Source: a virus. Taken from it: a stretch of 23,746 nt of DNA. Position numbers and translations under genes: made by a program. Numbering within the stretch: position 1 is the stretch's first letter; each line of letters begins with the position of its first letter. Under the pieces are notes generated by a model, which made no database searches, was not told the DNA's origin, and saw only the letters and a list, made by a program, of their open reading frames with translations. The stretch spans positions 1 to 23,746 of the IMG/VR virus record IMGVR_UViG_3300046007_006792, one strand, 5' to 3'. Shown in pieces: positions 3 through 12,561 of this stretch.

Positions 3-1784
3 CTCACCGTTACATCAGGTGCAACATTCGGCATCACTGACCATTCAGGTGTTGCCCGATTTGCCGCAGGTGTTACAGCATCAAGAATAGATGTGATTAA
101 TGATTTGAAAGTTGTTGGTGGGACTGAAATTAATGGTCATGTAACCATCAATAGAGGGTTAACTATTGGCGGTGGCGGTGGAGTATTGAATCCTCTTGGT
201 GGAATATCAGGTGTGACATTTACTCAAACCACCGATACAACGGGTGTTGCACGGTTCAATGGTGGTGCAACAGCATCAACCCTTGATGTCACAAACGCTG
301 CACGATTCAATGGTGGTGCAACAGCATCAACCCTTGATGTCACAAACGCTGCACGGTTTAATGGTGGTGCAACAGCGTCTGCACTAAATGTCACAGGTGT
401 TTCACGCTTGAGTGCAGGAGTTGCGCAAGTAACCACAATCCAAAGCAACAATATAGAACAAGTAAAAGTGGGTATTCCTGTTGGAGTGCTTATAGCAGGA
501 ACCACACAAGCAGGACTTCAGTTGTTGTCTGATGATGGAGTTGGAGGAAACTATTCAACTACTTTCCAAACAGCCACACTATCAGCAAATCGCACCATCA
601 ATCTTCCGGACGATAGTGGGACCGCTGCGCTCACAAAGGGAACGGTTTGGCGGCTGAACGGAATCACAGGCGGCATCACGCTCAACCAAGGTGCAAACAT
701 CACCATTACCTCGTCCGTTGCAGGCGGCATAACCATTGCGTCAACCGCATCAGGTGGCGGTGGTGGTGCGCTCACAGCAGATGCAAACATTTGGACGGCT
801 ACCCAATACTTCAATGCAGGGTTCTCTGCTGCAAGTGGAGTGACATTTACGGGAACGGTCGCTGCAAACGGCGGATTGACCGCATCCACGCTTGATGTTT
901 CAGGAAACACGAGAATCACAGGCAGCATAACTGCAACTCAAGGATTCACATTCGGGTCTGGTACAACTTTCTTGGCATTCTATCCAGACACAGCAGCAAA
1001 TAATGGTGGTGTTTATCAGCGTCAGGGCATATTTCAGTTGGGTGGATCCTCTTTTAATGACATCGGTTCTGCGTCATTCATAATCAACCCAAACACCGAA
1101 ACCCACGGTCTGTATGGCAATTTTAGAATTACTACAGATCAGACTTATCAAGCCGCGCAGAACACACTTTCTCTCAACATCAGCCCATCACACACAGGCA
1201 GACCGCTTCGTGTTGTTCAAGGTGCAACCACCATAGCGGGAATAGAGCCAAGCGGGTTCCTTATTGGTGCGGGACTGAATCCTGCAATAACAGTAACTGG
1301 TCTTGGCGGATTGACAATAGGCGGAAGCCCTATTGGTTTCAGCAATTTGGGTCTGCGCCTGTCCCACACAAACAGCATGGCAGGAGCATTCTCCTCCGTT
1401 GACACTTTTGCTGCCGATCTTGGAGGCACTCCCACCCGCCTTGACTTCAACAACCTCACCATTGTGGGCGGCAGCGGCGTGGCAATAGGTTCAGGTGCAC
1501 TCAACGCCCGAACAAGCGGATACACCCTTACTGCAACCGACAACGGCAAGGTGGTTACATTTAACTCTGCAAGCGCGTTGGTGTGCGGTGTGGACACCGC
1601 AGCGGGAGCCACAGGTTTCTCCTGCACAGTCATTCAGTTGGGAACAGGTGGCGTGCGGTTTGCGAGCAGCGGCGTGACGCTCAACAGTTACAGTGGGCTT
1701 ACCCTTGCAGGACAACACGCTGCGGCATCTCTTGTGTGCTACCAGACAAACGTGTTTAATGTAAGCGGAAACCTCACGCCATGA
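3..1784 (+). CDS. Tail fibre / virion adhesin protein, 5' end outside window
   Basis: The frame is open to the left edge. Codons before the GTG at 93 continue the same repeat pattern (GVARFAAGVTASRIDVIND), so GTG93 is internal and the gene is 5'-truncated. The visible part is about 594 residues rich in Gly, Thr, Ser, Ala and Asn, with no catalytic motif. Near its start are 17-residue repeats of the type ARFNGGATASTLDVTNA. Further on come beta-rich stretches with more ASTLDVSG-like elements. The last ~90 residues (TLTATDNGKVVTF... to NVSGNLTP) resemble a small C-terminal domain I know from phage fibre and head-decoration proteins, with a TGFSCTVIQLGTGGVRF core. Likely role: trimeric, extended, receptor-contacting fibre. 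It overlaps the next gene by 4 nt (ATGA), which suggests coupled translation of two adhesion proteins. Family type is fairly sure; the exact structural position is unknown. Confidence 0.75.
   Translation, partial: LTVTSGATFGITDHSGVARFAAGVTASRIDVINDLKVVGGTEINGHVTINRGLTIGGGGGVLNPLGGISGVTFTQTTDTTGVARFNGGATASTLDVTNAARFNGGATASTLDVTNAARFNGGATASALNVTGVSRLSAGVAQVTTIQSNNIEQVKVGIPVGVLIAGTTQAGLQLLSDDGVGGNYSTTFQTATLSANRTINLPDDSGTAALTKGTVWRLNGITGGITLNQGANITITSSVAGGITIASTASGGGGGALTADANIWTATQYFNAGFSAASGVTFTGTVAANGGLTASTLDVSGNTRITGSITATQGFTFGSGTTFLAFYPDTAANNGGVYQRQGIFQLGGSSFNDIGSASFIINPNTETHGLYGNFRITTDQTYQAAQNTLSLNISPSHTGRPLRVVQGATTIAGIEPSGFLIGAGLNPAITVTGLGGLTIGGSPIGFSNLGLRLSHTNSMAGAFSSVDTFAADLGGTPTRLDFNNLTIVGGSGVAIGSGALNARTSGYTLTATDNGKVVTFNSASALVCGVDTAAGATGFSCTVIQLGTGGVRFASSGVTLNSYSGLTLAGQHAAASLVCYQTNVFNVSGNLTP
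249..401 (+). repeat. 51-bp tandem repeat in tail fibre gene
   Basis: Units 249-299 and 300-350 differ at a single base (acggttc versus acgattc). Unit 351-401 is recognisable but diverged in its second half. Older copies of the same 17-codon pattern flank them at about 54-104 and 402-452. Each unit encodes ARFNGG(A)TAS-type sequence, in frame, so copy-number change would lengthen or shorten the fibre without a frameshift. Confidence 0.9.
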
Positions 1785-3943
1785 TTCTGCCATCTGCAAG
1801 CGGATTCCGCAACAACTACGGTCCTGCTATCCTCACATGGGGACAGAACACCAATGGTGAGGTAGGAAACGGAACAACCAGAGATGTGAGAAATCCATTC
1901 AGAATGGGTGGCAATCTACGATGGAAAACCAGTTCTTCTGGTGTAAATTTTGGAACAGCAATACGGGAAAACGGAACCCTGTGGGCATGGGGCAACAACA
2001 CAACAGGACGGTTGGGGCTGAACGACACAACTAGCAGATCCTCTCCCGTTCAAATTGGAACTGCCACAGATTGGTCTATTGTTGATTCGGGTGGTGGACA
2101 CTCTATAGCAATAAAAACAGGAGGATCGTTGTGGGTATGGGGGAATGGATCCCAAGGACAACTTGGCGACGGCACCACAACAAGCAAATCATCGCCTATT
2201 CAGATTGGAAGCGAAACAGATTGGACTGCTGTTTCTGTTGGTGGACAGCACTCATTGGCTATTCGTGGAGGCGGTCTGTGGTCATGGGGATCAAATGTTA
2301 GCGGTCAATTGGGTCTTGGTGATAATACCCTAAGAAACTCACCAGTTCGGGTTGGTCTTGGAAGCGATTGGCTATTGGTGGAGGCAGGTGAAACGCAAAG
2401 TTTTGCAATCAAGACAGATGGAACCCTGTGGGCATGGGGTGCAAATACATTCGGTCGTTTAGGGTTGAATGACGGCACAACACGATCATCACCTGTTCAG
2501 ATTGGCACAAACACTTGGAGAACGGTCAGTTCAACGTATAGGCACACCATTGCAATCAGATCGGACGGAACCCTGTGGGCATGGGGATACGGAAACAGGG
2601 GACGATTGGGAGATGGTGCTGCCACAAACAGATCTTCTCCTGTTCAGATAGGAACACGAACAGATTGGCTTTCTGCATTTGCGGGTTTCTACAACAGTTT
2701 TGCTATCACCACAGACGGAACCCTGTGGGCATGGGGATACAATATCCGATACAAGTTTGGCACGGTGAACTCCACAATAAAATCTCCAATACGTATGAGC
2801 GAAACATCCGATTGGAGCAGCGGTCAAATGCTCAAGTTTACAAACAATTGCATTTCGCTAAAAACTGATGGAACCATGTGGGGATGGGGAGCAAACGGTA
2901 GTGGTATATTGGGGTTGGGAGATACTGTAAGCAGATCCTCTCCTACACAAATAGGGAGCGGAAACGATTGGTCTACTGTTAGATGCGGAAATGTGCACAC
3001 GCACGCAGTAAAAACAGGAAATTCCATGTGGGCGTGGGGAACAAACAACAATACTCAGTTGGGATTGGGTGATGCAACTAATCGCTCATCCCCTGTTCAG
3101 GTTGGAGCACTAACTGATTGGAGACTGCCCATACAAGCATCAACAAGCACATTGGCAATAAAGACCAACAATACTCTGTGGGCAGTCGGAGGCGCAAACG
3201 CAAACGGAGTATTGGGATTGGGAGATGCGACTGCCCGTTCATCACCAGTACAAGTTGGAGGGCTGAACAATTGGAGCACTGGTTCTGGTGGTCCTACTCA
3301 TGTTTTGGCAATAAAGACAGACGGAACGCTGTGGGCATGGGGACTTGGTGCCAATGGTCGTTTAGGAGATGGTGCTGCCACAACCAGATCATCTCCTGTG
3401 CAGATAGGAACAGGCACTTCTTGGTTGTCTGTGAGTGCAGGTGGAGCATTCTCATTCGCAATACGAAGCGTTACGGTTTCTAGCGGAACTCTGTGGGCAT
3501 GGGGTTATGGTTCCCGAGGACGTTTGGGAACTGGCGATACAACATCCAGATCATCTCCTGTTCAGGTTGGAACAGACACCAACTGGAATAGCGTTTCGGC
3601 AGGATCAGCACAGACATTTGCAACAAAGAGTGATGGAACCCTATGGGCATGGGGCGTAGGGGCATTCGCTGCATTAGGGTTAAATGAACCAAACACAAGT
3701 CTAGGCGACAGATCCTCTCCTGTTCAGATCGGAACCGATACGGATTGGGCATTTGTAAATTCACACTTCTACAATACCATAGGGGTAAAGACAGACGGCA
3801 GAATGTTTGGATGGGGAAGAGGATACGACCAAGTTCTGCTCACTGAAGTGTTTTTTCAAAGATCTTCACCAGTTCAAGTAAGTAGTCTTGCGGGTTGGAA
3901 ACAAGTTTCTTCTTATGGTTCTGGAATAGCCATCCGCAGATAA
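1781..3943 (+). CDS. RCC1-repeat (beta-propeller) tail/adhesion protein
   Basis: The product has 720 residues and consists almost wholly of RCC1-type repeats. Each carries a core like DGTLWAWGxNxxGxLG followed by GD(G/A)TTxRSSPVQIG and a W...S.G...fAI strand. I count 14 W-x-W-G-type cores (two degenerate, LWAVGG and MFGWGR), about 51 residues apart. RCC1 repeats build seven-bladed beta-propellers in which each repeat gives one blade, so 14 repeats would fit two propellers. There is no signal peptide or enzyme motif. The ATG overlaps the TGA of the fibre gene (ATGA), so it is probably translated and assembled with it. RCC1-repeat proteins occur near tail genes in marine phages, and a role as receptor-binding or fibre-tip protein is inferred. 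Base use (GGA, AGA, AAC-rich) differs by eye from the genes downstream. Confidence 0.85.
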   Translation: MILPSASGFRNNYGPAILTWGQNTNGEVGNGTTRDVRNPFRMGGNLRWKTSSSGVNFGTAIRENGTLWAWGNNTTGRLGLNDTTSRSSPVQIGTATDWSIVDSGGGHSIAIKTGGSLWVWGNGSQGQLGDGTTTSKSSPIQIGSETDWTAVSVGGQHSLAIRGGGLWSWGSNVSGQLGLGDNTLRNSPVRVGLGSDWLLVEAGETQSFAIKTDGTLWAWGANTFGRLGLNDGTTRSSPVQIGTNTWRTVSSTYRHTIAIRSDGTLWAWGYGNRGRLGDGAATNRSSPVQIGTRTDWLSAFAGFYNSFAITTDGTLWAWGYNIRYKFGTVNSTIKSPIRMSETSDWSSGQMLKFTNNCISLKTDGTMWGWGANGSGILGLGDTVSRSSPTQIGSGNDWSTVRCGNVHTHAVKTGNSMWAWGTNNNTQLGLGDATNRSSPVQVGALTDWRLPIQASTSTLAIKTNNTLWAVGGANANGVLGLGDATARSSPVQVGGLNNWSTGSGGPTHVLAIKTDGTLWAWGLGANGRLGDGAATTRSSPVQIGTGTSWLSVSAGGAFSFAIRSVTVSSGTLWAWGYGSRGRLGTGDTTSRSSPVQVGTDTNWNSVSAGSAQTFATKSDGTLWAWGVGAFAALGLNEPNTSLGDRSSPVQIGTDTDWAFVNSHFYNTIGVKTDGRMFGWGRGYDQVLLTEVFFQRSSPVQVSSLAGWKQVSSYGSGIAIRR
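1836..3900 (+). repeat. ~150-bp imperfect tandem repeats coding RCC1 blades
   Basis: About 14 in-frame units. The best-conserved stretch is the block GGAACCCTGTGGGCATGGGG, identical or nearly so in several units (about 1974, 2430, 2569 and 2719, with variants elsewhere), together with an (A)GATC(C/A)TCTCCTGTTCAGAT-like block. Such homogenised DNA suggests repeat expansion or recombination between units. Confidence 0.8.
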
Positions 3944-3971: not shown

Positions 3972-5768
3972 ATGAGCAAAACAGTGCATTTCTTGGCAGG
4001 TCTTCCCCGCAGCGGTTCAACAGTCCTCTCTTCGTTGCTGTCGCAACATCCGCAGATCCATTCCACAACCACCAGCGGACTCATAGATCTTATGGGTGCG
4101 CTGTGCATGGCATGGGAATCGTCCCCTGCGGTCCACACGCAAAAGACAGACAAGGACGAGGCATACGCACTCCTGAAGTCCGTGATGGACACCAAGTATC
4201 AAGGCACTACTAAGCCTATTGTTGTAGACAAGAGCCGTGGGTGGGCGAACCCGCAGATCATGAATACGTTGGAAAAGGTGATTGGTCAGAAGCCGAAGAT
4301 CATTTCAACTGTTCGTCACCCTGCGGACTGCGCTGCGTCCTTTGTTCGGTTGGCAAATCCGCAAGATCTTCAAGGGTTCCTTTCCAATTCCCAACTGGTG
4401 GAACACCTGAAGAACTCGTATGCCACACTCTACAACGGCTACAAGGAGAATCCCGACTGCTTCCTGTTCGTGGACTACGACGATCTCCTGTCCCATCCAC
4501 AGGCACAAATGGATCGCATTCACGCATTCCTTGGAGTGGAGCCGCACACATACAATTTCAACTCGCTTGATACCCAAGTGGTTGCAGAGCGAGATGATGA
4601 GGTGTGGGGCATTCCCAATCTCCACAAGATCGGTTCACGCCTTGAGCGGCAACACTCCCGCACTGCACGGGAAATATTGGGATACCACTACGACAACTAC
4701 GATCCGCCGAAGTTTTGGAAGGGCGAGTCGTTTGAGAACGTGAAGCCCAAGAAGATTGACCGCTCGGTGCGCCTGTCCATGCAGGGCAAGGCAAAGCAGG
4801 CATACAAACTCATCTGCGAGGCACACAAGGAAAATCCTGTGTGCAACAAGATTGCGTTTAACATGGGGTGGTTTGCATTGGGGCAGAACCGATTGCAGGA
4901 GGGTATGGCATACCTTTCACGGGGTCGCTACGAGCGGTGCTTTGGAAACCCCAAGCCTCCTGTGCCAACTCAAATTTGGGACGGCAAGAGCATGGGCACC
5001 ATTCTCTACTACCTTGAGGGCGGGCTTGGCGACCAGATTCACGCTCTCCGCTACATCAAGGACATTAACCGCCGTGGCTGTGATGTGATTGTGGCGTGCT
5101 CGCCTGAACTGTTTCCTGTTGTGCGGTGCTGCGAAGGCGTAAAGACAATCGTGCAGCACGAAGCGGCAGGCGGTGTGTATCACGATTGGTGGGTTCCTGC
5201 AATGTCGGTGCTTCTGCCTCTTGGCTACGAGTATCCCGACATCAGCGGCAAGCCGTATATCCCAAGGATCTCCGTGCCCAAGAACGGCAAGAAGCCCACC
5301 ATTGGAATACGGTGGTGGGGCAACCCAAAGTTTGAACACGAACAGAACCGCCGTTTCCCTCTCAAGCCGTTCTTCAAGGCATTTGAGGGGATTGACGCTG
5401 ACTTTGTGTGCCTGCAACGGGACGAGGGAGCGGATGAGGCTCCACCGTGGATGCGGAGGGTGCGGTTGGATTCGTGGGAAGACACCCGTGCAGAACTGTC
5501 AAAGTGCGATTTGGTGGTGTCGTCATGCACAAGCATTGCCCACATGAGTGGCGCAATGGGAATAGATACATGGATCATCGTGCCTGTGCTCCACTACTAC
5601 CTGTGGGCAGTGCCTGGAAACCAGACACCATACTACGATTCCGTTCGGCTGTTCAGGCAGACCAAATACGGATCGTGGAGCGCACCGATGAGCGAACTGA
5701 AAACGGAACTGAACGCAAGATACAGCAAGAAGGAGACTGAAAATGGCAAACTATTGGGTGCGTGTTGA
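3972..5768 (+). CDS. Sulfotransferase - TPR - glycosyltransferase fusion protein
   Basis: A 598-residue protein with three parts. Residues 1-245 look like a PAPS-dependent sulfotransferase: the 5'-phosphosulfate loop is LPRSGST (11-17), and a 3'-phosphate-binding region, STVRHPADCAASFVR, lies at 112-126. Residues ~265-325 resemble a TPR hairpin linker (AFNMGWFALGQNRLQEGMAYLSRGR). Residues ~340-590 resemble a GT-B glycosyltransferase of the heptosyltransferase/TPR-associated type, with GGLGDQIHALRYIKD (350-364), GIRWWGNP and a late CDLVVSSCTSIAHMSGAMG segment. A GGAG at 3960-3963 precedes the ATG by 8 nt. Predicted action: sulfation of, and sugar transfer to, a glycan or protein. The acceptor is unknown. 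The position directly behind fibre genes and before more transferases suggests modification of virion fibres or of the host surface. The end overlaps the next gene by 26 nt. Confidence 0.8.
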   Translation: MSKTVHFLAGLPRSGSTVLSSLLSQHPQIHSTTTSGLIDLMGALCMAWESSPAVHTQKTDKDEAYALLKSVMDTKYQGTTKPIVVDKSRGWANPQIMNTLEKVIGQKPKIISTVRHPADCAASFVRLANPQDLQGFLSNSQLVEHLKNSYATLYNGYKENPDCFLFVDYDDLLSHPQAQMDRIHAFLGVEPHTYNFNSLDTQVVAERDDEVWGIPNLHKIGSRLERQHSRTAREILGYHYDNYDPPKFWKGESFENVKPKKIDRSVRLSMQGKAKQAYKLICEAHKENPVCNKIAFNMGWFALGQNRLQEGMAYLSRGRYERCFGNPKPPVPTQIWDGKSMGTILYYLEGGLGDQIHALRYIKDINRRGCDVIVACSPELFPVVRCCEGVKTIVQHEAAGGVYHDWWVPAMSVLLPLGYEYPDISGKPYIPRISVPKNGKKPTIGIRWWGNPKFEHEQNRRFPLKPFFKAFEGIDADFVCLQRDEGADEAPPWMRRVRLDSWEDTRAELSKCDLVVSSCTSIAHMSGAMGIDTWIIVPVLHYYLWAVPGNQTPYYDSVRLFRQTKYGSWSAPMSELKTELNARYSKKETENGKLLGAC

Positions 5769-6171
5769 AAACGGCGTGGTGGTTGAGTGTCTCAGTTACA
5801 ACCCTAACACGGAAGGCGATTGGCGTGAAGCAGTGGATGTGCCTGCCAACCCCATTCCAAACCGACAGATTGTGGAAGGTCACTATTTTGACATCACGAA
5901 GACTCCTGTGGAGGTTGTGTGGGGCGTGAAGGACTTGAGCGTTGAAGACCGCAAGGAAACCATACTGATGGAAATCACGCAGGCAGAGCGACAGGCAATA
6001 CGTCAAGAGGTTGAGAAAGAGATGAACTGCTCTTGCTCTTCCGATGGCGAATGCTGTGTTGACACGCTCACCGAAAACATCGCATCGCTGCGGCAGAAAC
6101 GGGAGCAGGTTGCCGTGCTGACCACTCATGAGGAAGTGGATCAGTATATGATCGCAAACGGTCTGCTGTGA
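5743..6171 (+). CDS. Hypothetical protein with Cys cluster and coiled coil
   Basis: 142 residues, no family firmly recognised. The N-terminus (MANYWVRVENGVVVECLSYNP) resembles the opening beta-hairpin of small proteins often found beside phage tail fibre genes (pattern: xYaVIeNGvVvN). Residues ~66-95 are a charged helix. A compact Cys cluster, CSCSSDGECC (Cys 96, 98, 104, 105), lies in the middle and could bind metal. A second helix runs to the C-terminus. An AAGGAG lies 5' of the ATG inside the end of the upstream gene, supporting this start and translational coupling. The TGA overlaps the GTG of the next gene. It could be a fibre accessory or chaperone, but this is a guess from position. 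Confidence 0.65.
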   Translation: MANYWVRVENGVVVECLSYNPNTEGDWREAVDVPANPIPNRQIVEGHYFDITKTPVEVVWGVKDLSVEDRKETILMEITQAERQAIRQEVEKEMNCSCSSDGECCVDTLTENIASLRQKREQVAVLTTHEEVDQYMIANGLL

Positions 6172-6956
6172 GAGTAGCGTTCACAATCATCCACAACGGG
6201 TTGCACCATCTGCACCACAATGATCAGCACCGCAAGATACTGAACGCGTGTGACTATTGGGTGGTAGTGGAAGGTGCGGCGCGTTCCAACGGCAGCACAC
6301 AGTGGTGCAAGGAGTTTCCTCCGCATCTTCACCGCAAAGGGAGCAGCATTGACGGCACGGTAGAGTTTTTGCGCGGATTGGCAAACACCGAATCCAAGTT
6401 GGTGTTCGTGGAGTCTAATGGATTTTGGGCTTCCAAGGACGAGCAGGTAAACCGTGCAACCGATGCTGTTCGCGCTATTACCTCCAAGTGCTTTCTGTGG
6501 CAGATAGACGCAGATGAGCAGTGGGAAGAGAGTGCGATGAGTGCAGCAGAGGAGGAGTTGGTGCGCAAGGGTGCAAAGGCAGGATGCTTTCGTGCAGATT
6601 GCCGAGTGGGGCAGAACCTACGGGCAATCGGAGAATGGGGCGAGGCACGCACCTACGGCTACACGCGGTTGTGGAATTGGGAAGGCGAGCGGTTCATCTG
6701 CCATGAGCCTCCCGTGATTGAAGGGCAGATGGGCGTGGATCCCACAATGCTCTCGCCCACGTTTACACACTACAACTACTATTTTGAACAGGATGTGGCA
6801 TTCAAAAACGAGTGGTATGGTGGGCATGAGGGCATACTTGAGCGGTGGAAACACATCAACTCGCTCCACCCAAGATTCTTTCCACTGCACATTTCAAATC
6901 TCATAACAGGCGAGTGGGGCAGGACAAGCAGTTCCATCGTGTATTGCGGAGAGTAG
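6168..6956 (+). CDS. GT-A-like glycosyltransferase
   Basis: 262 residues starting at a GTG that overlaps the preceding stop (GTGA). No better ATG is in frame nearby. The opening strand MRVAFTIIHNG and CDYWVVVEG, the stretch SKLVFVESNGFWASKDEQVNRA, and then FLWQIDADEQW (109-119) follow the order of GT-A transferases: a nucleotide-sugar-binding first half, then a DxD-type motif (Asp114, Asp116) for metal and UDP/GDP-sugar. His-rich HHLHHND at 13-19 is unusual. No transmembrane segment is evident, so it probably acts in the cytoplasm. The neighbours (sulfotransferase/glycosyltransferase upstream, methyltransferases downstream) suggest one glycan-building cassette. Sugar and acceptor cannot be told from sequence. 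Confidence 0.7.
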   Translation: MRVAFTIIHNGLHHLHHNDQHRKILNACDYWVVVEGAARSNGSTQWCKEFPPHLHRKGSSIDGTVEFLRGLANTESKLVFVESNGFWASKDEQVNRATDAVRAITSKCFLWQIDADEQWEESAMSAAEEELVRKGAKAGCFRADCRVGQNLRAIGEWGEARTYGYTRLWNWEGERFICHEPPVIEGQMGVDPTMLSPTFTHYNYYFEQDVAFKNEWYGGHEGILERWKHINSLHPRFFPLHISNLITGEWGRTSSSIVYCGE

Positions 6957-6957
6957 C

Positions 6958-7584
6958 ATGGAAGAGCGCGGACAAATCTGCATGGGAACTCCCTTTGGGG
7001 ACAAGTTATATGAGTTGTGCTTCTGCAATCCATTTGTGAAAACAGTTGTTGAGATTGGAACATGGAGAGGGCTTGGCAGCACCGAGTGCATTATTCGTGG
7101 GCTTTCCGATTCCAAGAGGGAGAACGTGAAGTTCATCAGTCTTGAAGCGGATCCGCGTATGCACGCAACCGCAACCGCAGCGTGGAGCAGCAACCTTCCG
7201 CCGTGGGCAGAACTGCTGTGCGGAAGAATCGTCAATCCCGAAGACATGGATGACAGCGATTTGGGATCAGGGCATCCCGATGAGCGGCTGTGGTTTGATC
7301 AGGATCTACGGGCATTCCGTCAATGCCCAAACGTATTGAATCGCATTCCGCAACAGATAGATTTCCTGTTCCTTGACGGCGGCGAGTTTTCCACTTATGC
7401 AGAATACACCAAACTGAAAGATCGGTGCGTGTTCGTGGGGTTGGACGACACTACTTGCAGAAAGTGCAGACGCATCAGGGAGGAGATACTTTCTCAACCA
7501 CAATGCTATGAGATATTGCTGGACAACCCGTGGTATCGCAACGGCGTGATGATATACAGGAACAAGACTGATGAAATGGTATAA
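6958..7584 (+). CDS. SAM-dependent methyltransferase-like protein
   Basis: 208 residues. Motif I of class I methyltransferases is visible as VVEIGTWRGLGS (30-41), followed by an acidic end of the second strand (FISLEADPR, 59-67) that normally binds the ribose of SAM. IDFLFLDGGEFSTYAEY looks like the fourth strand and acidic loop seen in methyltransferases of the sugar/lipopolysaccharide-modifying type (FIDGxHxY-like), here with DGGEFSTY. It begins one base after the TAG of the glycosyltransferase and overlaps the next gene by 14 nt, so it belongs to the same transcript. Probable role: O-methylation of a sugar or small molecule. The substrate is unknown, and catalysis should not be assumed from motif I alone. 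Confidence 0.65.
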   Translation: MEERGQICMGTPFGDKLYELCFCNPFVKTVVEIGTWRGLGSTECIIRGLSDSKRENVKFISLEADPRMHATATAAWSSNLPPWAELLCGRIVNPEDMDDSDLGSGHPDERLWFDQDLRAFRQCPNVLNRIPQQIDFLFLDGGEFSTYAEYTKLKDRCVFVGLDDTTCRKCRRIREEILSQPQCYEILLDNPWYRNGVMIYRNKTDEMV

Positions 7585-8083
7585 CGGTCCATCGTGCGCA
7601 GGATACTGCGAGAGCAATACCCGAAGATTTGATTCCCTTCGCGGGCTTCAGTTCTCTTCTCTTCTTGATGTGGGATCAGGACCGTGCAGACTGCACACAT
7701 GGCTACAGGCAAACGGAATGGATTGCCACTACGAGGCAGTTGACATACGCGCTGATGCGCTGTCCCTGTGTTCGTGCAAAACATATGCAGAGATTCCCGC
7801 AGACGGAAAATACGATGCGGTGTGTCTGTTCGGAACTTGCGGATTTACAAATGATCAAACACAAGAGTTTCAGAAATCCCTACTAGTATCTCTCATTTAC
7901 AAATCCCTTCCCTTGACTGTAAAATACTTGGTGTTCAGCGGCATCCGCGATTCGGTAAATGATCCGCATCTTGTAAAGTATTCGGAGAGGGAGTTTGTCC
8001 AAACTGTGGAAAGTGTGTGCGCAAACTACACCATAGACGCACGATCCGATCCGTCTGAATGGATTGCTGTCTGCTACGTGTAA
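7571..8083 (+). CDS. SAM-dependent methyltransferase-like protein
   Basis: 170 residues, short for a class I methyltransferase. Motif I is clear: LLDVGSGPCRLHTWL (31-45), with YEAVDIRADAL after it as the acidic strand-2 end and YDAVCLFGTCGFTND as a strand-4 region. The C-terminal part (VKYLVFSGIRD...) could form strands 5-7. It overlaps the upstream methyltransferase gene by 14 nt but shows no obvious sequence similarity to it beyond the fold motif. It is the last gene of the modification run; after it comes a non-coding gap with a promoter. The acceptor may be a glycan, protein or metabolite. Confidence 0.65.
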   Translation: MKWYNGPSCAGYCESNTRRFDSLRGLQFSSLLDVGSGPCRLHTWLQANGMDCHYEAVDIRADALSLCSCKTYAEIPADGKYDAVCLFGTCGFTNDQTQEFQKSLLVSLIYKSLPLTVKYLVFSGIRDSVNDPHLVKYSEREFVQTVESVCANYTIDARSDPSEWIAVCYV

Positions 8084-8172: not shown

Positions 8173-10092
8173 ATGAAGCGACTGCCCACTCTTTACCAGG
8201 ATTTCATTCACCTTTCGCGCTACTCTCGTTGGCTTGAAGACGAGAAGCGCAGGGAATCGTGGGAGGAGACAGTGGATCGCTACTTCCGTTTCTTTGATGA
8301 GCATTTCGCGGAGAAGGGCGTGAAGGTTCAGAAGACGGTGCGGGACGAACTCCGCAACGCAATCCTCAATCTGGAGATTATGCCGTCCATGCGTTCGCTC
8401 ATGACCGCAGGCGAGGCACTGAAGCGCGACAACACCGCTGGCTACAACTGCTCGTATGTGGCAGTGAACAAGGTGCGTGCGTTTGACGAGATCCTATACG
8501 TTCTCATGTGCGGCACAGGTGTGGGCTTTTCCGTGGAGCGGCAGTATGTGGAGAAACTGCCCACCATTGCTGAGACTTTCACGCAGTCCGACACCGTGAT
8601 CGTGGTGAAGGACTCCAAGGAAGGTTGGGCAAAGGCGTATCGCGAACTGGTGTCTCTCCTTATTGGCGGTCAGGTTCCGCAATGGGACATGAGCAAGATT
8701 CGCCCCGCAGGAGCGCGACTGAAGACATTCGGTGGTCGCGCAAGCGGTCCCCGTCCGCTAGACGAACTGTTCCGCTTCACCACCGACACATTCAAGCGAG
8801 CAGCAGGACGCAAACTCACATCCATTGAGTGCCACGACATTGTGTGCAAGATTGCAGAGATCGTTGTGGTTGGTGGAGTGCGCCGTTCCGCTCTCATCTC
8901 CCTGTCCAATCTCACAGACGAGCGTATGCGTGAGGCAAAGACAGGGCAGTGGTGGCTTGAGAATCCGCAGCGTGCCCTTGCAAACAACTCCGTGGCATAC
9001 AAGGAGAAGCCCGACATCGGCGTGTTCATGGAGGAGTGGCTTTCGCTCTACAAGAGCAAGAGCGGCGAGCGCGGCATCTTCAACCGCCAAGCGGCACAGA
9101 AGACTGTTGCAAAGTTGGGTGATCGTCGTGATCCGTCATACGAGTTCGGCACCAATCCGTGTTCGGAGATCATTCTCCGCGACAAGGAGTTCTGCAACCT
9201 GAGCGAAGTGGTTGTGCGTCCGCATGACACGGAGGAGTCCCTCGCTCGCAAGGTTCGTCTTGCTGCGATACTTGGAACGTGGCAGGCATCACTCACCCAC
9301 TTCCCGTATCTCAGCAGCGAGTGGAGCAAGAACTGCGAGGAAGAGGCACTGCTTGGCGTTTCGCTCACAGGCATCATGGACAACGCGCTCATGCGGACAC
9401 GGGGTCACGCGCTGAACGGACTGTTGGAGCGGTTGCGTGGCGAAGCCGTGGGCGCGAACAAGGAGTGGGCAAAGCGGATCGGCATCAACCCTGCCGCTGC
9501 CATCACGTGCATCAAGCCCAGCGGAACGGTTTCGCAGTTGACCGATGCAGCCAGCGGCATCCACGCTCGCCACTCTGAATACTACATCCGCACCGTTCGT
9601 GCAGACCGCAAGGATCCCATGTGCCAGTTCATGATTGACAAGGGCATCCCTGCCGAGCCGTGTGTGATGCGCCCCGATCACACAATGGTGTTCTCGTTCC
9701 CCATGCGAGCCACGGGATCAGTTACGCGCAACGATCTTACCGCTATTCAGCAGTTGGAGTTGTGGTTGGATTACCAGCGGCATTGGTGCGAGCACAAGCC
9801 AAGCATCACTGTCACTGTGCGTGAGCATGAGTGGATGGATGTGGGTGCATGGGTCTACGCGCACTTTGACGAGATCAGCGGCATCTCTTTCCTCCCCCAC
9901 TCCGACCACACGTATCAGCAGGCTCCATACCAAGACTGCACAAAGGAGCAGTATGAGACAGCGGCAGCGAAACTGCCTGACGAGATTGATTGGAGCGAGT
10001 TGAGCACTTACGAAAAGACCGACAGCACCGTGGGCACACAGACTTTTGCGTGCAGCGGAGACAAGTGCGAAGTGGTTGACCTGACTACATAA
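8173..10092 (+). CDS. nrdJ: Adenosylcobalamin-dependent (class II) ribonucleotide reductase
   Basis: 639 residues. It reduces ribonucleotides (probably triphosphates) to deoxyribonucleotides for phage DNA synthesis, using a radical from coenzyme B12 and no oxygen. Key residues match the Lactobacillus leichmannii monomeric enzyme by pattern and spacing: Cys93 in YNCSYV and Cys341 as the active-site thiol pair, Cys330 in NPCSEI as radical cysteine with Asn328 and Glu332, and the C-terminal shuttle pair Cys627/Cys632 (CSGDKC). Spacings 330-341 (11) and 627-632 (5) equal those of the known enzyme (408-419, 731-736). CIKPSGTVSQL (446-456) is a conserved substrate-binding loop. It is about 100 residues shorter than the 739-residue bacterial protein, a compact viral form. 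It has its own promoter, a strong AAGGAG 7 nt before ATG, and a terminator behind, so it is a single-gene unit. No intein or split is seen. Confidence 0.95.
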   Translation: MKRLPTLYQDFIHLSRYSRWLEDEKRRESWEETVDRYFRFFDEHFAEKGVKVQKTVRDELRNAILNLEIMPSMRSLMTAGEALKRDNTAGYNCSYVAVNKVRAFDEILYVLMCGTGVGFSVERQYVEKLPTIAETFTQSDTVIVVKDSKEGWAKAYRELVSLLIGGQVPQWDMSKIRPAGARLKTFGGRASGPRPLDELFRFTTDTFKRAAGRKLTSIECHDIVCKIAEIVVVGGVRRSALISLSNLTDERMREAKTGQWWLENPQRALANNSVAYKEKPDIGVFMEEWLSLYKSKSGERGIFNRQAAQKTVAKLGDRRDPSYEFGTNPCSEIILRDKEFCNLSEVVVRPHDTEESLARKVRLAAILGTWQASLTHFPYLSSEWSKNCEEEALLGVSLTGIMDNALMRTRGHALNGLLERLRGEAVGANKEWAKRIGINPAAAITCIKPSGTVSQLTDAASGIHARHSEYYIRTVRADRKDPMCQFMIDKGIPAEPCVMRPDHTMVFSFPMRATGSVTRNDLTAIQQLELWLDYQRHWCEHKPSITVTVREHEWMDVGAWVYAHFDEISGISFLPHSDHTYQQAPYQDCTKEQYETAAAKLPDEIDWSELSTYEKTDSTVGTQTFACSGDKCEVVDLTT

Positions 10093-10151: not shown

Positions 10152-10154
10152 CCG

Positions 10155-10184
10155 ACCCCCGTGAAGTGCGGGGGTTTCTTTTTT
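10155..10184 (+). terminator. Strong Rho-independent terminator of nrdJ
   Basis: ACCCCCG / CGGGGGT, a perfect 7-bp G+C-rich stem with a 7-nt loop (TGAAGTG), directly followed by TTCTTTTTT. It ends transcription between nrdJ and the protease gene, so the protease needs its own promoter. Confidence 0.92.
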
Positions 10185-10217
10185 GAAAATCTGGCAATTT
10201 TGGTTTCGGGGAGTCCA

Positions 10218-10225
10218 CTAAATAT
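10218..10225 (+). promoter_or_regulatory. T4-late-promoter-like box CTAAATAT before protease gene
   Basis: CTAAATAT, resembling the T4 late promoter consensus TATAAATA, sits 4 nt before the ATG of the lipoprotein protease and 33 nt after the terminator. The same box in the same spacing lies before the RuvC-like gene. Confidence 0.5.
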
Positions 10226-10229
10226 TTGC

Positions 10230-11012
10230 ATGAAGAGCCGCGCTGTCCAGCCTCTTCTCACTGCCCTTGCACTCGTCCTAGCAGCCTGTGCAACGCCTGT
10301 CCCGCCTACACTAGAAGCCCCAATCCCGCCACAGGCTCCCGCTGAGAGCCGTCCGTGGCTCAAGGGGTGGACGATCATACCCCCAACAGAACATAGCGCA
10401 ATAGGATGCCTTCTTTCAGAGGAAGAGGGGATGATCGGCAGCGGTATTTTAATCGCTCCCCGTGTGGTGCTCACGGCAGGGCACTGCACAGACGGAAAGA
10501 ACAGACCTCACTATTTTTCAACAGGGGGCGGATGCTATCCCATTTATAAAATAGTTACACATCCACTTTACAAAGTGAACGGACAAATCGTGGTGGACGC
10601 AGCACTCGTGTTTCTGACGGCAGACTGCCCCGAAACGCCTGTTGCGCTCCACCACGCCAACGAAGACGTTTCCCGCTACGACTACCTCACGGTGGTGGGA
10701 TACGGCGGCGGGATCAAGAAGATCAGCAACCCTGGTGTGTTTTGGTGCTACGGTGTTCTTGCCGACGAGCCGTTCTCTCTACGTTTCCTCACCATTGACG
10801 GCACGGCATGGTTTGGCGACTCAGGCGGTGCAATACTGAACACCAAAGGCGAACTGGTTGGGGTCACCTCTGCCATCCTGTCTGACAGGGGACGGATCTT
10901 TGAGAATATTGGTGTGCGGATTCAGATGATCCGCGTGTGGATACACCACACACTCAATCAGCAGGATCCCGCTCTACTTCTGCTTCCAGAGCAGTACCGA
11001 CAGGGGGAGTAG
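10230..11012 (+). CDS. Secreted lipoprotein trypsin-like serine protease
   Basis: 260 residues. The N-terminus is a lipoprotein signal: KSR, a hydrophobic run LLTALALVLAA, then Cys20 in LAAC (Ala at +2, which in enterobacteria sends a lipoprotein to the outer membrane), and a Pro-rich linker to ~40. The rest is an S1 chymotrypsin-fold protease: GSGILIAPRVVLTAGHC with His85, VVDAALVFL with Asp123 and WFGDSGGAIL with Ser198. The order and spacing of the catalytic triad are as expected. The frame is open back to 10095, but that stretch runs through the terminator, so ATG10230 is chosen. There is no Shine-Dalgarno; a CTAAATAT box ends 4 nt before the ATG. The 3' end overlaps an antisense gene by 59 nt. 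Possible roles: lysis, cell-surface protein or receptor cleavage, or superinfection exclusion. Confidence 0.85.
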   Translation: MKSRAVQPLLTALALVLAACATPVPPTLEAPIPPQAPAESRPWLKGWTIIPPTEHSAIGCLLSEEEGMIGSGILIAPRVVLTAGHCTDGKNRPHYFSTGGGCYPIYKIVTHPLYKVNGQIVVDAALVFLTADCPETPVALHHANEDVSRYDYLTVVGYGGGIKKISNPGVFWCYGVLADEPFSLRFLTIDGTAWFGDSGGAILNTKGELVGVTSAILSDRGRIFENIGVRIQMIRVWIHHTLNQQDPALLLLPEQYRQGE

Positions 11013-11205
11013 TATTAGCAGGAGCAGCAGGCACAACAGCAAGACGCTTCTCCAGTTCTCCCTTTTCCTTTTGGGCAATCCGCAGTTTGGCTTCAAGCAC
11101 AAGGACTTGAGCGGTGAGTTCGTTCACCTTCTCGTGGAGAAGCGGAATAAGAACAGTCTCGTTGTAGTTTTCGCTGACCATGTTAGGAATCATTGGTGGG
11201 ATCAT
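10954..11205 (-). CDS. Small coiled-coil protein, tail-spike chaperone-tail-like
   Basis: 83 residues. Residues ~12-52 form a heptad-patterned helix (NETVLIPLLHEKVNELTAQV and on), then a Pro/Ala-rich tail. The segment YNETVLIPLLHEKVNEL resembles the C-terminal helix of S74-type intramolecular chaperones of tail spikes (Y...LIPLL..AIKEL...). The stretch before it, with the autocleavage Ser/Lys, is absent, so it would be only the trimerising tail of such a domain. AAGGAG at 11215-11220 (reverse strand) is 9 nt before the ATG, good evidence of translation. It overlaps the protease gene tail to tail by 59 nt and diverges from the RuvC gene. Function unknown. Confidence 0.6.
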   Translation of the reverse strand: MIPPMIPNMVSENYNETVLIPLLHEKVNELTAQVLVLEAKLRIAQKEKGELEKRLAVVPAAPANTTPPVGTALEAEVERDPAD

Positions 11206-11237: not shown

Positions 11238-11245
11238 CTAAATAC
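11238..11245 (+). promoter_or_regulatory. T4-late-promoter-like box CTAAATAC before RuvC-like gene
   Basis: CTAAATAC followed by CTGT and ATG. This matches the arrangement before the protease gene (CTAAATAT, TTGC, ATG), giving a shared string CTAAATAYYTGYATG. A start of transcription ~10 nt downstream would leave almost no leader. Confidence 0.5.
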
Positions 11246-11249
11246 CTGT

Positions 11250-11828
11250 ATGCTGATAGCAGGAATTGACTATTCTCTTTGTGGTCCTGCGGTGTGCCTG
11301 TTCAAGCCCTCCGCGACGGGGAGGTTCTGCCATCAGGACTGCTCGTTCTTCTTTCTCACAAACAACAAGCGACAGTCAGAAATACGATACACAAACATCT
11401 TTGGTGAGCGGTTGAACGATTGGGACTCGGACGAGCACCGCTACGAGACAATCGCGGATTGGGCAACGGACATCGTGATGGGCTGCACCCATGTTGCGCT
11501 TGAGGGATACGCGTTCGGTGCAAGCGGTCGGGTATTTCAGATCGCGGAGAACACGGGTGTCCTCAAATACAAACTGTACCAGTTGGGCATTCCCGTCACC
11601 GTGATGCCGCCCACCGAGGTGAAGAAATACGCCACAGGCAAGGGCAATGCAGACAAGAATGCCATGTATACCGCGTGGATCAACGAGACAGGGGTGAGTC
11701 TGAAGTCCATGCTTACACCCAACAAGAGCGACAGCGTGAGTCCCGTGTCAGACATCGTGGACGCGTATTTCATCTGCAAGAAACTGCACGGCTCCTTGCA
11801 GGAAACCAAGATAGAGGATGAAGACTAG
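11250..11828 (+). CDS. RuvC-like Holliday junction resolvase
   Basis: 192 residues from the ATG at 11250. An in-frame TTG at 11220 would add ten residues, but it lies under the Shine-Dalgarno of the opposite gene. The RNase-H-like fold of RuvC is seen in IAGIDYSLCGPAV (Asp7), HVALEGYAFG (Glu85), VKKYATGKGNADKNAM (124-139, typical of RuvC and close phage relatives) and SDIVDAYFI (Asp168, Asp171). These supply the four-acid metal site. Role: cutting branched DNA before packaging, the job done in T4 by endonuclease VII. There is no Shine-Dalgarno; it has a CTAAATAC box as upstream signal. It ends convergently with the lipoprotein gene, sharing CTAG at 11825-11828. Confidence 0.85.
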   Translation: MLIAGIDYSLCGPAVCLFKPSATGRFCHQDCSFFFLTNNKRQSEIRYTNIFGERLNDWDSDEHRYETIADWATDIVMGCTHVALEGYAFGASGRVFQIAENTGVLKYKLYQLGIPVTVMPPTEVKKYATGKGNADKNAMYTAWINETGVSLKSMLTPNKSDSVSPVSDIVDAYFICKKLHGSLQETKIEDED

Positions 11829-12109
11829 CGAGCGGTGGTTTTCTTGCGGCGTGGGGTCTTGCCCTTTGCAGCAAGTGTTGACTTCCGCTTGGAGATGAAC
11901 TCACGCCATGCCCATGCAAGGGCAAGAGCAAGCACAGGCAGATACCACAGGATCCAACCCCAATTGAAAGAGGTGGAGTTGTTCACAATGTTGTGGCGCA
12001 GCCCTTGAATGATGGGACTCTCCTTGATGTGATCGTCAGACACGATTCGTGGTGCGCTGTCGCACGCAACAAGCAGGAGGGGAAGCAGTAGTGCGTAGAT
12101 TCGGTTCAT
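11825..12109 (-). CDS. Small membrane lipoprotein, spanin-like
   Basis: 94 residues. A lipoprotein signal (MNRIYALLLPLLLVAC, Cys16) is followed by ~33 periplasmic residues, one transmembrane helix (GWILWYLPVLALALAWAW, ~51-68) and a strongly basic tail (KGKTPRRKKTT). N-terminal lipid plus C-terminal membrane helix is the build of unimolecular spanins, which join outer and inner membranes in the last lysis step. However, the periplasmic part is very short, and Asp at +2 after the lipid Cys would keep it in the inner membrane in enterobacteria. AAGGAG lies 9 nt before the ATG. It directly follows the holin gene (11-nt gap), which supports a lysis role. No endolysin is in the window. Confidence 0.65.
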   Translation of the reverse strand: MNRIYALLLPLLLVACDSAPRIVSDDHIKESPIIQGLRHNIVNNSTSFNWGWILWYLPVLALALAWAWREFISKRKSTLAAKGKTPRRKKTTAR

Positions 12110-12120
12110 GGTGTAACTCC

Positions 12121-12561
12121 TTATGACTTGTTCGCTGCGGCAGCACTGCCGAAGTAGAAGCCGACGATGCTCACGAGAATCTGCCGTGTCTCGGACGCGA
12201 ACAGGAACCCGTTTACCTCAACAAAATACTTGCGGGTAGTCTGCGGGAACAGCCCGAACAGCCCCTCTGGTTGGGTTGCGTCCACCTCAACAAAGGTGGG
12301 CAAGCCAAAGAACGGCAGGATGAATGGGGCAAGCAGTGTTGCAAACAGCACGGACAGCACGATCAGTTGACGGATTCCCTTGCCCACATCAAGGGGAACA
12401 CGCTGCGCGGCTTTGTCTTGGTTCTCTGTGGTGCGCTTGTTTGCGTCCATCAGACGCGTGAACATTTCCTTCTGATCCTGCGACTTCTGTGCCATGTAAC
12501 GGAACAGGAATCCAGTGGCAGCACCACCAACGAGCGAAATCAATTCAGGTGTAAACGGCAT
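12121..12561 (-). CDS. Holin (3-TM, gene-transfer-agent type)
   Basis: 146 residues. An N-terminal segment with Gly-rich GGAATGFLF (5-22) may be a membrane helix. A charged coiled helix (24-62) follows, then a strong helix RQLIVLSVLFATLLAPFILP (64-83), a loop with FGLFPQTTRKYFVEVNGF, and a third helix ILVSIVGFYFGSAAAA (128-143). This matches the layout of the 3-TM holins I know from gene transfer agents and marine phages. It makes inner-membrane holes that release endolysin. AAAGGA at proper spacing and a CTAAATAC box (12581-12588) precede the ATG, so it may be transcribed separately from the structural genes upstream. Confidence 0.75.
   Translation of the reverse strand: MPFTPELISLVGGAATGFLFRYMAQKSQDQKEMFTRLMDANKRTTENQDKAAQRVPLDVGKGIRQLIVLSVLFATLLAPFILPFFGLPTFVEVDATQPEGLFGLFPQTTRKYFVEVNGFLFASETRQILVSIVGFYFGSAAAANKS

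Follow-up and report, generated by a model that had tools for sequence, protein, structure and literature searches.

What is known of how phages lyse cells and inactivate receptors comes from a few model hosts and involves holins, endolysins, spanins and small binding lipoproteins; we know of no counterpart among the known lysis systems for a lysis or release function that is proteolytic. Phage spanins and outer-membrane lysis proteins are late, lipidated and located in the envelope, as the protein described here is predicted to be, and a common purpose is possible; spanins, however, have no protease domain with which to act on the outer membrane, and no homology to this protein was seen. Llp of phage T5 and Cor of T1-like phages are likewise phage-encoded outer-membrane lipoproteins acting at the envelope (PMC9586334), but are small receptor binders without an enzymatic domain, whereas the protein studied here, encoded in a 23,746-nt stretch of viral DNA (positions 1 to 23,746 of IMG/VR record IMGVR_UViG_3300046007_006792; hereafter “the window”), has 260 aa, a protease domain and late-type control. 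With that size and domain, and with a late-type promoter box, it was not accepted as an Llp/Cor-type exclusion lipoprotein. Among enzymes, the S1 peptidases of Pfam families PF00089 and PF13365 have the two-barrel fold, the His-Asp-Ser triad and the GDSGG motif in common with it, but the nearest solved S1 structures are only ~20% identical to it and differ in that the window protein has a lipobox, a Pro-rich tether and phage late-type control. The HtrA proteases DegP, DegQ and DegS, which provide the best single-sequence PDB matches, share a Trypsin_2-type core, but are periplasmic and either soluble or transmembrane (TM), whereas the window protein carries a lipobox and no PDZ domain; membership of HtrA/DegP was rejected on the missing PDZ domain and a score of 26.9 bits against an NCBIfam cut-off of 416. 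The PHROG 9683 “protease” aligns over residues 10-220 (E=2.4e-8) and is remote. In the open-licence literature searched, we found no trypsin-like protease described as both lipidated and encoded by a phage, nor any case of receptors being removed by proteolysis. The enzyme family and the lipoprotein targeting are of known kinds; what was found neither in these papers nor, by tblastn, among the isolate phages is their combination in a late-type gene that is near-core to a clade of phages, together with a fold replacement.

The gene occupies exactly the coordinates given by the first-pass annotation for a serine protease of family S1 (10230..11012, + strand; ATG at 10230, TAG at 11010-11012), and its product is laid out, from the N- to the C-terminus, as a basic start, a hydrophobic stretch, a lipobox, a Pro-rich linker and a chymotrypsin-fold domain. 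The lipobox L17-A18-A19-C20 (10278..10289, +) follows the hydrophobic stretch, and LAAC at residues 17-20 satisfies the pattern [LVI][ASTVI][GAS]C of a type-II signal peptide. From Cys20 to the protease domain runs the Pro-rich linker (residues 21-46; 10290..10367, +), which is of low model confidence, its residues 25-36 being disordered with pLDDT values below 50 in the AlphaFold model. The codons for the catalytic His85 (in VLTAGHC; 10482..10484), Asp123 (10596..10598) and Ser198 (in GDSGG; 10821..10823), all on the + strand, correspond to residues that are invariant in a 39-sequence alignment of the protease family. The full triad that had been claimed was placed correctly, and the clean lipobox is there as well; Cys20, His85, Asp123 and Ser198 are all kept in 111 of the 112 protease copies collected by way of neighbouring genes, i.e., not baited by the protease itself. 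The protein matches Pfam Trypsin (PF00089; 1.5e-12, 48.3 bits against a curated cut-off of 20.6) and Trypsin_2 (PF13365; 2.2e-11, 45.1 bits against 27.6), and its AlphaFold model, for which the 39-sequence alignment served as input, has a mean pLDDT of 84, with at least 90 for 154 residues. Foldseek searches with this model returned S1-type proteases throughout (probability 1.00, TM 0.55-0.66, ~20% identity), the nearest solved folds including granzyme M, protein C, exfoliative toxin A and the Spl proteases. By profile, by triad and GDSGG motif and by its double-barrel model, the window protein thus belongs to peptidase family S1 and is a predicted protease. Sorting to the outer membrane is predicted from the residue at +2 after the lipobox Cys, which is Ala in the window protein and other than Asp in 39 of 41 non-redundant loci, the rule applied being that of E. 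coli.

The strong terminator and the separate late-type box that had been noted ahead of the gene were both located, and both are conserved upstream of orthologues beyond chance. The intrinsic terminator (10154-10176, annotated as 10154..10186, +; 10-bp stem, T-rich tail) lies between the genes for a ribonucleotide reductase (RNR) and the protease, and the T4-late-type promoter box CTAAATA (10218..10224, +) ends 5 nt before the protease ATG. The late promoter of T4 and KVP40 is TATAAATA and that of a T4-like cyanophage is NATAAATA (PMC2984593). A box of the TATAAATA/NATAAATA type is thus found just 5' of the gene and kept in its orthologues, as seen in T4-like late units: in the orthologue set selected by the VLTAGHC motif, a TANATA box is present at most 30 nt upstream in 52 of 52 distinct upstream regions (random 30-mers, 3.5%), its TAAATA form in 42 of the 52 (random 30-mers, 1.7%), and a terminator-like hairpin ~40-95 nt upstream in 39 of 57 regions, as compared with 3 of 285 shuffles. 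The T4 late promoter box sits at -13 to -6, and if the same placement applies here, the transcript would start at the protease ATG or within a few nt of it, i.e., as a nearly leaderless mRNA. The box of the downstream RuvC gene (11238-11244) likewise lies only 5 nt before its ATG, and such spacing would make the mRNAs of both genes leaderless or nearly so.

Upstream of the terminator lies the RNR gene, adenosylcobalamin-dependent by its matches (8173..10092, +; phrog_367, 5.9e-195; TIGR02505, 9.4e-94), and downstream of the protease a RuvC-like resolvase (11250..11828, +; phrog_159, 5.9e-32) with its own CTAAATA box, which is directly downstream of the protease in most protease loci as well. 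A small convergent ORF with a coiled-coil look (10954..11205, -; 83 aa) overlaps the 3'-terminal 59 nt of the protease gene and is present in 11 close relatives. Beyond RuvC, the usual order continues with the convergent genes C6 and C3, or with C5. C6 is a small lipoprotein (LLVAC) with a C-terminal TM segment and a spanin-like architecture (11825..12109, - in the window; 22 loci), the product having a weak Rz-like match (phrog_3198, E=0.0064); C5, a larger lipoprotein with a coiled coil and several TM segments, replaces C6 at the same place in other loci, and both are candidate single-protein spanins. C3 is a conserved multi-TM protein of holin-like look (12121..12561, - in the window), which matches phrog_38283 (2.8e-17), a phrog of unknown function, returned no match in a Pfam search and, at 79-91% identity in the 80 loci fetched out of 204 found, makes a good marker for the phage clade. 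Pfam and PHROG searches of the neighbouring membrane proteins gave no firm lysis family call, and no endolysin was found in the window, so the first-pass placement of the gene beside lysis genes is no more than plausible, by the architecture of the neighbours. Relatives show further envelope-directed genes around the protease, i.e., a porin-like beta-barrel and a secreted Gly/Tyr-rich protein in addition to the lipoproteins and TM proteins. The porin-like beta-barrel (C11, 382 aa) is found upstream of the protease in a marine subclade (13 loci; ~1.8 to 0.7 kb upstream in L012), and the small secreted Gly/Tyr-rich protein (C15) is encoded, in other loci, upstream of the protease within its gene cluster (L003; 11 loci).

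Among isolate phages, the protease has no close sequence relative: a tblastn search of the window protein against 50,697 phage records gave no relative beyond weak DegP-like and unannotated matches (best E=2e-3, DegP-like), and a search of the isolate phages with a diverged family member gave only weak matches that were DegP-like or unannotated. In the isolates Cr30, Mosig and DLP_6, RNR and RuvC are close together, with no annotated protease there. A scan of IMG/VR with the window protein alone yielded one relative contig (92% identical over 4.3 kb), and a DNA-pattern scan for VLTAGHC yielded 108 stretches, 76 of which encode family members (28-96% identical to the window protein). As the latter set favours copies whose His motif is intact, frequencies and triad conservation were taken from sets anchored on neighbours, for which the multi-TM gene (g12121) and RuvC served as baits. 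With the multi-TM bait, the protease was present in 61 of the 67 loci with enough flank; both baits combined, with partly overlapping contigs, gave 112 loci with the protease, seven with a subtilisin and 13 with neither, several of the 13 either representing another type of T4-like gene order or having some other gene at this position. The one copy departing from the conserved pattern above (L277:3765-4127, -) is a protease gene fragment whose frame is lost, apparently a broken copy or a sequencing error. Judged from these sequences, the gene, whose address tag and late switch are conserved, is near-core to a large, widespread aquatic clade of T4-like phages that are uncultured, and the view of it as isolated and odd in a lytic phage gives way to that of a standard component of the clade, normally directly upstream of RuvC. 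The protease gene beside RuvC could also serve as a marker for finding these phages in metagenomes.

The closest relatives are not host genes lacking phage counterparts, the outcome that would have spoken against the first-pass reading; the search for the same gene in related phage genomes gave more than 70 orthologues in uncultured T4-like phage contigs, whereas homologues in bacteria are distant and match over part of the protein only (best 4e-9), the best match of the family profile in Planctomycetota being 4.6e-24. In a quick maximum-likelihood tree, 60 phage family members form one group apart from the bacterial homologues (SH-aLRT 86), and unrelated trypsins from other viral contigs are placed elsewhere, most of them among bacteria. 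Ten protease pairs gave dN/dS values of 0.07-0.29, i.e., purifying selection, and over 41 non-redundant loci the distances of protease and RuvC correlate (Mantel r 0.65, a value reached in none of 2000 permutations).

In five contigs (L217, L218, L219, L234 and L240), the place between RNR and RuvC is taken by a subtilisin-family protease of 480 aa (Pfam Peptidase_S8, 5.4e-43; e.g., L217:5712-7154 and L234:4017-5459, both -), also behind its own TATAAATA box. On either side, the genes are still close orthologues, with the RNR 85-88% identical to that of the window, and a small ORF similar to window 10954-11205 adjoins the subtilisin version too. As an unrelated protease fills the same slot behind a TATAAATA box, extracytoplasmic proteolysis is suggested to be what selection keeps there, and since an unrelated fold can do duty in the slot, the activity would probably be fairly broad and not devoted to cutting a single phage protein with which it co-evolved. 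The swap is no proof of the same location or function: the five contigs are one lineage (94-100% nt identity) and thus one event, and the stand-in, a putative protease, has Glu (VIETGV) at the catalytic Asp position in all five and is without a lipobox. In the lineage of L258/L307, the slot is empty and RNR and RuvC are directly adjacent, and since neither protease is present there, the function is dispensable in some phages. Still, nearly all of these viruses carry the protease and one branch has swapped in an unrelated one at the same spot, for which reason they appear to depend on proteolysis in the envelope of the cell as infection ends.

The first-pass designation of a phage-encoded, outer-membrane-type lipoprotein serine protease is, therefore, upheld by a phage gene with an S1 fold, a lipobox and late-type control. 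As to its role, the reading we prefer, tentatively and at slightly less than even odds, is that of a late, outer-membrane-tethered envelope protease that may aid virion release, as a lysis aid and/or by receptor removal. Its own late promoter would drive its synthesis alongside that of the virion proteins; after Sec export and lipidation of Cys20, the protease would be sorted to the outer membrane and stay there on its flexible linker, from where it could cut proteins of the host envelope or surface as infection ends. The envelope would thereby be weakened for lysis and/or receptors destroyed on the dying cell and on what is left of it, allowing progeny to be released without being re-adsorbed. 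Consistent with such a role are the fold and triad, the lipobox, the late unit, the selection, the near-core status, the fold swap and the envelope-directed neighbours. Against it stand the “lysis” neighbours being assigned by architecture only, the lack of an endolysin in the window, the Glu and the missing lipobox of the subtilisin stand-in, whose swap was a single event, and the empty slot of L258/L307. If the release role is true, proteolysis joins the phage exit toolbox.

The same protease, surface-exposed or facing the periplasm, might serve only for receptor shaving and superinfection exclusion, removing the receptor of the phage itself and thereby keeping other phages as well as progeny from adsorbing to the infected cell or to pieces of it, with lysis unaffected. 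That phage outer-membrane lipoproteins inactivating receptors are known (Llp of T5 and Cor of T1-like phages; PMC9586334), and that a porin-like outer-membrane protein is encoded in the same cluster in one marine subclade, as if the surface were remodelled, lend this possibility some weight, and we regard it as unlikely but worth keeping in view. Llp and Cor are small receptor binders, however, not enzymes, the fold replacement is easier to reconcile with broad proteolysis than with a precise cut in a receptor, and superinfection-exclusion proteins are made early by many phages (PMC9586334), whereas a late-type box precedes the gene in every one of the distinct upstream regions. The predicted late timing thus disfavours classical exclusion and fits release, and timing and neighbours together speak for a role in release as infection ends rather than in the early exclusion of superinfecting phages.

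Improbable, in our estimate, is a counter-defence role, in which the protease would degrade defence factors of the periplasm or cell surface, or else host proteases, that would damage progeny or set off abortive responses; the predicted envelope location would suit it, and there are weak matches to protease domains in defence-related models, which show a shared fold only, but late expression comes late for defence against incoming DNA. Anti-defence genes are, moreover, usually patchy in distribution, unlike this one, which is near-universal in one clade over 30-45% identity. We would attach equally little likelihood to a processing protease carrying out a specific maturation step of lysis on an envelope protein of the phage (e.g., a spanin-like lipoprotein or a secreted protein): the conserved lipobox/TM neighbours (C5/C6) downstream of RuvC could be its substrates and the triad is strictly conserved, but a subtilisin can occupy the slot with the flanking genes still close orthologues, which argues against a specific, co-evolved cut. 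That the gene was picked up from a host not long ago and plays no part in infection is very improbable, for although trypsin-fold proteases are common in bacteria, Planctomycetota included, such a stray pickup is countered by the single phage clade in the quick tree, the purifying selection and co-divergence with RuvC, the dedicated conserved late unit and the near-core distribution.

The reading of the phage as a lytic T4-like one rests on its relatives, since the T4 Gp23 capsid gene was found in four of the 15 contigs searched, including 126-kb and 135-kb ones carrying the protease, and other window genes have relatives in cyanophages, Melnitz, Mosig and Cr30. Because of the porin-like neighbour in the marine subclade and the tail of the subtilisin, Planctomycetota are likely hosts for part of the clade, and for the phage of the window itself we infer such a host from these relatives only. 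In a comparison that sampled Planctomycetota and Pseudomonadota, homologues of the porin-like protein were found in 78 of 294 planctomycete genomes (best 1.7e-26, 37% over most of the length) and five of 299 Pseudomonadota genomes (best 2.4e-8). The C-terminal tail of the subtilisin looks dockerin-like by eye, is not called as a dockerin by Pfam and has weak matches in two of 199 planctomycete and none of 200 Pseudomonadota genomes, which is suggestive only. That the whole T4-like clade, probably of Planctomycetota, exits by way of a dedicated, late, outer-membrane-tethered “release protease” with interchangeable trypsin and subtilisin folds is a bolder proposition, and a rather doubtful one at present; the release role, if true, would give a way into the question of how phages cope with planctomycete envelopes, which are unusual. 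Elsewhere in the window, a 720-aa protein with RCC1-type repeats (1781-3943, +; Pfam RCC1, 3.6e-105), unusual in a phage, is possibly a tail-fibre or adhesion part, and the row of ORFs at 3972-8083 (+), with a sulfotransferase-like one (phrog_27463), two weakly methyltransferase-like ones and others of no known kind, is a possible surface- or glycan-modifying cluster.
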